Assembly (NCBI GenBank): GCA_903837135.1
Contig: CAILTK010000051.1
Span: 1 to 64,000 of the forward strand
Source of the DNA: an uncultured Caulobacterales bacterium
GTDB lineage: Bacteria; Pseudomonadota; Alphaproteobacteria; Caulobacterales; Caulobacteraceae
Direction of reading: 5' to 3'
Length of the DNA stretch: 64,000 nucleotides
In this document: positions 60,895 through 61,869 of the stretch, piece by piece
How positions within the stretch are numbered: the stretch's first letter is position 1
How the letters are laid out: every line of letters starts with the position of its first letter
Program-made: the position numbers and the translations under genes
The notes under the pieces: generated by a model
Told to the model about the DNA's origin: nothing
What the model saw: the letters and a program-made list of their open reading frames with translations, nothing else
Database searches by the model: none

Positions 60895-60992
60895 GCCGGG
60901 GACCGGCCCTTATCGCGCGCAGGCCTCGCGGGCGGCCGCAGTTCGTGGTATAGTCTTGCGCTTCCGCCGTATTCCGCTCGAAAGCCAGTCTC

Positions 60993-61388
60993 CTGACCAC
61001 CGACATCTCCGCGTCCGCCACCCTCGCCGCTCCTGCGCTGGACGCCGAGACGATCACCGCCATGATCCTGGCCAAGCTCGACGACGACAAGGCCGAGGAC
61101 ATCGTCGCCATCGATCTCAAGGGCTCCTCGCCGCTGGCCGACACCATCGTGATCGCGTCGGGGCGCTCGCAGCGCCACGTTTCGGCCCTGGCCGACCATC
61201 TGCTGCGGGCCCTCAAGGACGCAGGCCTTGGCCGCGCCCAGGTGGAGGGTCTGCCGCACGCGGACTGGGTGCTGATCGACGCGGGCGACGTGATCGTGCA
61301 TCTGTTCCGGCCCGAGGTGCGCGCCTTCTACCAGATCGAGAAGATCTGGTCGGTGGACAGCCCCCACAGGGGCCTGTCGGCCGGGTAG
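60993..61388 (+). CDS. rsfS: ribosomal silencing factor RsfS (apparent CTG start)
   Basis: 131 residues if started at CTG 60993. The core AKLDDDKAEDIVAIDLKG, GRSQRHVSALADHLL and HADWVLIDAGDVIVHLF is RsfS, which binds uL14 and blocks subunit joining. The first ATG is 61062, which cuts into the first helix. No ATG, GTG or TTG lies in frame between the stop at 60951 and 61062. Confidence 0.9.
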   Translation: MTTDISASATLAAPALDAETITAMILAKLDDDKAEDIVAIDLKGSSPLADTIVIASGRSQRHVSALADHLLRALKDAGLGRAQVEGLPHADWVLIDAGDVIVHLFRPEVRAFYQIEKIWSVDSPHRGLSAG

Positions 61389-61398
61389 GGCGCTCCCG

Positions 61399-61869
61399 CT
61401 GCGCATCCTCCTCTGCGCCATCGGCCGGCTCGGCGGCGATCCGGCCGCCGCTCTCGCCAGGGACTACGCCGGCCGGGCGACCGCGGCCGGACGGTCGCTG
61501 GGATTGGGTCCGGTCGAAATCCTCGAAGTCGAGGCGAGGAAGTCCGGCAAGGCCGCGGAGGCCGACGCCCTGCGCGCCGCGATCGGCGGCGATCCGGCCT
61601 ATCTGATCGCGTGCGACGAGCATGGCCGGCCCCAGCCGTCACGCCTGTTCGCCGAGCGGATCGGCAGACTGCGCGACGGCGGCGAGCGCCGGCTGGTCTT
61701 CGTGATCGGCGGCGCGGATGGTCTGGATCCTGCGTTCGTCGCCGAGGCACGCGAGACCCTGGCCTTCGGTCCGCAGACCTGGCCGCACGCCCTGGCCCGC
61801 GCCATGCTGGCCGAACAGGTGTATCGCGCGGTGACCATCCTGTCCGGGAGTCCATATCACCGTGACTAG
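61399..61869 (+). CDS. rlmH: 23S rRNA pseudouridine1915 N3-methyltransferase RlmH (apparent CTG start)
   Basis: 156 residues from CTG 61399, matching the usual 155. LRILLCAIGRLGG aligns with the family N-terminus; FVIGGADGLDPAF and ALARAMLAEQVYRA are the SPOUT knot. The first TTG (61504) would lose 35 residues. An aggg stretch lies 8 nt upstream of the CTG. Confidence 0.9.
   Translation: MRILLCAIGRLGGDPAAALARDYAGRATAAGRSLGLGPVEILEVEARKSGKAAEADALRAAIGGDPAYLIACDEHGRPQPSRLFAERIGRLRDGGERRLVFVIGGADGLDPAFVAEARETLAFGPQTWPHALARAMLAEQVYRAVTILSGSPYHRD

Follow-up and report, generated by a model that had tools for sequence, protein, structure and literature searches.

The window, the whole 64,000-nt stretch of DNA analysed here from an uncultured Caulobacterales bacterium, carries two neighbouring forward-strand genes, rsfS (ribosomal silencing factor, 60993..61388) and rlmH (23S rRNA (pseudouridine1915-N3)-methyltransferase, 61399..61869). 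rlmH comprises 156 codons from a CTG (61399..61401) plus the stop codon at 61867-61869, with which the CTG is in frame. The protein read from this CTG matches the equivalog model NF000988 over its full length (positions 1-156/156) at 228.7 bits, above the cut-off of 199, while PF02590 matches residues 2-154, and a PF02590 search found a single rlmH in the 120-contig draft genome. By family match RlmH is a SPOUT methyltransferase, with methylation of pseudouridine 1915 being its putative activity. On its 5′ side the CTG is preceded by 35 open codons of the rlmH frame, which reach into rsfS, and ATG, GTG, and TTG are absent from this frame from 35 codons before the CTG through codon 35. The first canonical in-frame start codon is a TTG at codon 36 (61504..61506), which would remove 35 residues and leave a product matching NF000988 positions 36-156 at 185 bits, under the cut-off. 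These results agree with an earlier note on this DNA, which had claimed that the family N-terminus and the normal length of 156 residues are obtained from the CTG and that the first canonical codon would cost the N-terminus; no canonical start in the window can give the conserved protein.

To place this codon in context, rlmH loci were compared across the Caulobacteraceae (Caulobacter, Phenylobacterium, and Brevundimonas, with some records labelled just Alphaproteobacteria, Proteobacteria, or ‘bacterium’). Matches to the protein were obtained in 379 of the 390 family genomes searched, and loci were taken from among the matches listed: 31 loci including the window's own, another 80 picked by hand from the list, and the best 80 of the named loci, many of them from genomes already in the sample. 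Removal of identical loci left 139 distinct loci, a sample that leans to window-like sequences and under-samples Brevundimonas-like and other distant genera. Codon 1 is ATG in 76, TTG in 25, GTG in 20, CTG in 17, and CTC in one (L061, in which a CTG occurs in frame two codons earlier). The homologous codon is thus NTG in 138/139 loci, as a start codon would be, compared with 2-5/139 for each of codons −1 to −6. CTG makes up 64% of leucine codons in the surveyed rlmH genes, so that 17 CTGs out of 17 would arise by chance with a probability of ∼6e-4, relatedness being ignored. Among the 18 CTG-type loci (the 17 plus L061), an upstream in-frame canonical codon occurs within the open frame of the available stretch in L056 (−41) and L061 (−43) only, and the next downstream canonical codon comes at position 8 in four loci and at 15-132 in the others. 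On a quick DNA tree from which codon 1 was excluded, the CTG label (counting L061) requires a minimum of 10 changes, of which the starred branches force six or more, and codon 1 undergoes 34 changes among start states. Because CTG recurs at the homologous codon in several lineages, the CTG of the window is not a one-off.

Control genes, in which a canonical start near the N-terminus was sought in the same way, behave differently. No locus without such a start was found among the anchored loci of pth (0/28), coaD (0/28), or nadD (0/70); pth and coaD were anchored in 28 of 30 loci each, and 41 nadD loci were unanchored, the gene lying outside the stretch or its motif being missed. These 126 anchored loci include 115 distinct ones (pth 28, coaD 27, nadD 60), and the difference between rlmH (18/139) and the controls (0/115) gives a Fisher P of 1.9e-5, relatedness again being ignored. 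Outside the family, 69 loci of the class were read, one of which (L194) actually belongs to the family; 59 of the remaining 68 have ATG, GTG, or TTG at the aligned codon, and in eight others such a codon lies no more than four codons away. L246 is the sole non-family class locus in which the CTG has no canonical codon in such proximity, and it is not counted as proof of a CTG start because a GTG lies 10 codons upstream. In E. coli K-12, rlmH starts with GTG and rsfS with TTG. Other CTG starts in the window were sought by synteny with two same-genus genomes, G002 and G001, in which seven ORFs of the window had matches in the stretches compared. Four of the seven lack a canonical codon at −20 to +5 of the homology start; rsfS and rlmH have none nearby, and the ORFs at 61835 and 62924 have GTG or ATG 9 and 7 codons on.

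Taken together, CTG 61399 is very probably the genuine start of rlmH, as the earlier note had proposed: the homologous codon is NTG throughout nearly all relatives, the two same-genus relatives carry ATG (G002) and GTG (G001) there, and the window offers no canonical codon that could give the conserved protein. With a single draft assembly, and with ATG and GTG in the same-genus relatives, base 61399 could be suspected of having been misread or misassembled from one of these two codons, but 16 further distinct loci of several genera have CTG there, which makes an error less likely, and we give it only a slight chance. That RlmH is made solely as a short form beginning at TTG 61504, with the conserved upstream part untranslated, is hardly credible, although TTG is an ordinary start codon in bacteria. 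The domain matches its model from residue 1, and the short form loses this part and drops below the family cut-off; a comparable start would fall as late as codon 94 in L008 and 86 in L038; and the part in question is under selection. Specifically, codons 2-35 of the window's rlmH have a pN/pS of 0.19 against G002, and codons 36-156 one of 0.16. Against L004, L005, and L030 the values are 0.43-0.47 and 0.26-0.39, respectively, indicating that purifying selection on the RlmH N-terminus is present but weaker than in the rest. Synthesis of RlmH as a fusion by frameshifting from rsfS would make use of the 35 open codons upstream, but a fusion would need no NTG, whereas the NTG column is kept in 138/139 loci and preceded by diverse codons; moreover, the rlmH frame is open for merely seven codons upstream in L005 and one in L167, and such a fusion is very improbable.

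The earlier note had also placed a Shine-Dalgarno (SD) sequence at proper distance from the CTG. An AGGG (61387..61390), overlapping the rsfS stop codon, is indeed present 8 nt 5′ of the CTG, but its duplex energy of −7.0 is no better than that of shuffled sequences (mean −7.24, P 0.47), so that it is at most a weak SD candidate; it is also predicted to be partly paired. The energies were scored with a generic anti-SD because a search of the draft genome for 16S rRNA, made for its anti-SD, found none. An SD is not required for Caulobacter starts, since 24.6% of CDSs have one (PMC4117421). The window's rlmH start reads CCG CTG, as the rsfS start context of the family largely does. In family rsfS, CCG is largely kept before the CTG although it lies outside the proposed coding part (C at −3 in 74/104, C at −2 in 99/104, and G at −1 in 90/104 loci).

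The rsfS gene upstream of rlmH, matched over its core by PF02410 and TIGR00090, ends with a TAG (61386..61388) that leaves 10 nt before the rlmH CTG. Its frame contains no ATG, GTG, or TTG between the in-frame stop at 60951-60953 and an ATG at 61062..61064, a start at which would drop 23 residues. We favour instead a CTG at 60993..60995 as the start, because the leader through this CTG (60959..60996, ending in CTGA) is almost identical in G002 (L395), with two mismatches and one gap in pairwise alignment, and G002 has CTG at the homologous place and lacks the ATG. CTG 60993 is not preceded by any SD match as long as 4 nt; the window's own rsfS thus lacks the strong SD of an infC-type start. 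A TATAGTC (60949-60955), ∼40 nt before the rsfS CTG, resembles the consensus of the Caulobacter −10 element; as such an element, it would put a promoter just upstream of the rsfS leader.

Many family loci likewise have an rsfS N-terminus without canonical starts. When the start was picked by motif, it was CTG in 66 of 67 distinct loci and ATG in one, at the beginning of the conserved block, with L183 and L191 matching the motif poorly. We also read starts by a motif-free rule, by which an in-frame ATG, GTG, TTG, CTG, ATT, ATC, or ATA 5-50 codons before the core is accepted if an SD of 5 nt or longer leads it at a spacing of 5-9 nt; loci of the control genes, E. coli, and loci with too short an upstream stretch were left out. 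Of 116 family loci (lying among L002-L032, L113-L192, L335-L364, and L395-L414), 91 have a CTG, three an ATC, 22 no SD-led start, and none an ATG, GTG, or TTG, with an out-of-frame background of 3/232 in the two other frames of family rsfS. In each of the three ATC loci, a CTG with a 4-nt SD is present as well. The 22 include the window as well as L183, L351, L355, L358, and L362, which have a different RsfS N-terminus. With an SD of at least 4 nt, the counts are CTG 103, ATC 3, and none 10 (background 21/232), and the picture was the same on 121 family loci before near-identical ones were removed. The CTG pattern was also considered as a mere effect of GC-rich DNA, a reading rejected because SD-led candidates are almost absent out of frame.

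CUG, AUA, AUC, and AUU make up the class of codons against which IF3 discriminates, UUG and GUG being ordinary alternatives, and IF3 tuning of infC was reportedly described by Butler in 1986 and 1987. An infC-type start, namely a codon of this class with a strong SD, is found in rsfS of 91/116 family loci at CTG. Beyond the family, 48 class loci give, at an SD of at least 5 nt, CTG 10, ATA 10, ATC 4, ATT 1, ATG 1, GTG 1, TTG 1, and none 20 (background 2/96), so that 25 of the 28 SD-led starts are CTG, ATA, ATC, or ATT. At an SD of at least 4 nt the same loci give CTG 13, ATA 14, ATC 6, ATT 2, ATG 2, GTG 1, TTG 1, and none 9 (background 10/96). The rule misses canonical starts that have no SD, as in L253 and L371, where a short open frame begins with ATG. 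The ATA, ATC, and ATT codons often occupy the same place, ∼16 codons before the core, and rsfS seemingly starts with one of them in L203, L209, L210, L214-L217, L367, L377, L380, L388, L389, L391, and L392. In a sample of the phylum, rsfS was readable in 21/27 loci: non-alphaproteobacterial genes have TTG, ATG, or no clear start, and five alphaproteobacterial ones have a CTG with an SD (5 nt in three, 4 nt in two), two of these, L424 and L427, having an ATG or GTG with a 4-nt SD further on. As a positive control, infC, for which 56/58 class genomes were matched, shows, at 17-20 codons ahead of the core, an ATA or ATC led by an SD in 30/30 class loci read; the window's own genome has an infC (L472, C15:36200-37300) that appears to start with ATT. 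These counts suggest that rsfS starts with CTG in most Caulobacteraceae and often with other codons of the IF3-discriminated class in related families.

Within the coding part of family rsfS, the start is followed by a conserved element, GCGC-N5-GCGC, located at exactly +16 (15 nt after the C of CTG) in 86 of the 99 distinct loci with a CTG led by an SD of 4 nt or more, and spanning +16 to +28, as in L006 and L148. Both alanine codons of the element are GCG, which accounts for 33% of alanine codons in the remainder of rsfS. The residues that follow the alanines vary (P, H, Q, L and H, Q, P, respectively), but their codons all start with C. The eight GCGC bases are kept in 95-103 of 104 distinct loci, with far more variation between them; together with the variable residues, this points to a constraint that acts at the level of DNA or RNA. 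Folding of +13 to +32 predicts a hairpin, with a mean of −7.4 kcal/mol. The four core stem pairs are invariant in the set and hence uninformative on pairing, and covariation at the fifth pair is not significant (16 of 43 distinct loops pair, compared with 12.0 in shuffles, P 0.063). The element may accordingly be an RNA hairpin or, given its palindromic arms and the non-significant covariation, a DNA-binding site. GCGC-N5-GCGC is absent from rsfS of the window, G002, and G001.

The rlmH start codon varies with the distance to rsfS, which lies directly upstream of rlmH in 109 loci; in 30 loci rsfS is outside the available upstream stretch (at least 390 nt in 29, shorter in one). Where the genes overlap (18 loci), rlmH starts with CTG in 13 and TTG in five, and 13 of the 17 CTG-type loci other than the window have a 4-nt overlap. 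At a spacing of 0-30 nt the starts are ATG 10, TTG 9, GTG 6, and CTG-type 4, the window among them; at 31-100 nt ATG 27 and TTG 2; and above 100 nt ATG 29, GTG 3, and TTG 1. Thus, beyond 30 nt, ATG is used in 56/62 loci and CTG in 0/62, and G002, with rsfS elsewhere on the contig, starts rlmH with ATG. L171 has a CTG with no rsfS found in the available upstream stretch, from which adjacency to rsfS is not needed for an rlmH CTG. The association of CTG with overlap gives a Fisher P of 7e-10 when loci are treated as independent, but is not significant once relatedness is counted (four independent pairs on starred branches, median p 0.25); an independent-pairs test of non-ATG starts against closeness of rsfS is likewise not significant. 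Re-initiation between overlapping or close stop and start codons has been described as distance-dependent (PMC10666635). The rsfS-rlmH pair, with its 10 nt in the window, resembles the short-distance termination-reinitiation pairs of that study and differs from them in that, in 13 of the 18 overlaps, a CTG start lies inside CTGA, ATG being used in none.

With the position of the rlmH start, the recurrence of CTG in other rlmH lineages, and the SD-led CTG in most family rsfS shown by comparison of loci, we think it likely that rlmH is translated from CTG 61399, in a unit with the preceding rsfS, for which a CTG start (60993) is probable as well. Ribosomes ending rsfS at the TAG (61386-61388) would re-initiate at the CTG 10 nt away, placing fMet there; re-initiation at this distance would tolerate a weak CTG without a good SD, and the weak start would keep RlmH output low. 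Re-initiation from rsfS is a plausible reason why the rlmH CTG is tolerated, and RlmH synthesis would then depend on rsfS translation. Alternatively, the CTG could be real but non-regulatory, the start of a low-demand enzyme having drifted among NTG codons. ATG, GTG, TTG, and CTG all occur at codon 1 in the family, with the many state changes on the tree noted above, and the same-genus relatives have ATG and GTG, as drift would predict. Yet pth, coaD, and nadD never drift to CTG (0/115 distinct loci), CTG is concentrated in rsfS-overlapping loci, although not significantly after relatedness is counted, and rsfS itself has an SD-led CTG in most family loci; we therefore hold drift to be possible but rather unlikely.

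In our reading of these sequences, rsfS, and sometimes a coupled rlmH, would use start codons that IF3 discriminates against. Family rsfS resembles infC in that it encodes a translation factor and combines a strong SD with a start codon from the IF3-discriminated class; it differs from infC in using mostly CTG in the Caulobacteraceae and in that IF3 control is hypothetical here, and the window's rlmH and rsfS differ further in having no good SD. According to Gvozdjak & Samanta, translation-related genes reportedly prefer non-AUG starts, possibly by way of IF3; that work is said to rest on annotated starts, which would seldom include CTG or ATA, and rsfS may be on its gene list. E. coli likewise uses non-AUG starts for both genes (rsfS UUG, rlmH GUG), but codons outside the CUG/AUA/AUC/AUU class. 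The UUG of E. coli rsfS is also given in the literature (PMC10917681). IF3 has been described as tuning its own synthesis, and in S. aureus infC starts with AUA and further non-canonical starts are accompanied by extended SDs, with modulation by IF3 (PMC13009471). In C. crescentus ribosome profiling, mapped starts are ATG 74.3%, GTG 14.5%, TTG 10.3%, and CTG 0.7% (Schrader 2014, PMC4117421), the last being the codon seen here, with rsfS and rlmH unmentioned in the passages of that study drawn on. A CUG in the Caulobacter dnaA leader is toeprinted and unused in vivo (PMC8443254), and CUG starts are rare, with no GUS expression from CUG in E. coli or tobacco chloroplasts (PMC9845219). A literature search, outside which subscription papers, supplements, and preprints mostly fell, found no title or abstract opening on CTG starts of rsfS or rlmH among the matches listed.

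As hypotheses, we advance IF3 control of rsfS, with discrimination against its start-codon class as at infC, and a hairpin at the mRNA entry site. Joined into one account, which we offer tentatively and consider doubtful as a whole, rsfS would be a second infC-like gene of the Alphaproteobacteria. It would start on CUG in the Caulobacteraceae and several other families and on AUA, AUC, or AUU in others, so that synthesis of RsfS, which silences the 50S subunit, would respond to IF3, which keeps the 30S subunit apart. In the Caulobacteraceae, a hairpin at +16, at the mRNA entry of the 30S subunit, would hold the initiation complex on CUG, and the rlmH CTG of the window would be a coupled follower of this arrangement. 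If true, this account would connect two anti-association factors, IF3 for the 30S and RsfS for the 50S subunit, and provide a natural test of an mRNA-entry hairpin supporting weak-codon initiation in bacteria. Were the rsfS pattern confirmed, the few bacterial genes known to depend on IF3-discriminated starts would gain a conserved member. Gene callers limited to ATG, GTG, and TTG would mis-start or truncate rsfS and rlmH. Downstream of rlmH, an M23 peptidase ORF beginning with GTG 61862 shares its first 8 nt (61862-61869) with the end of rlmH, and coupling may thus continue down the operon.
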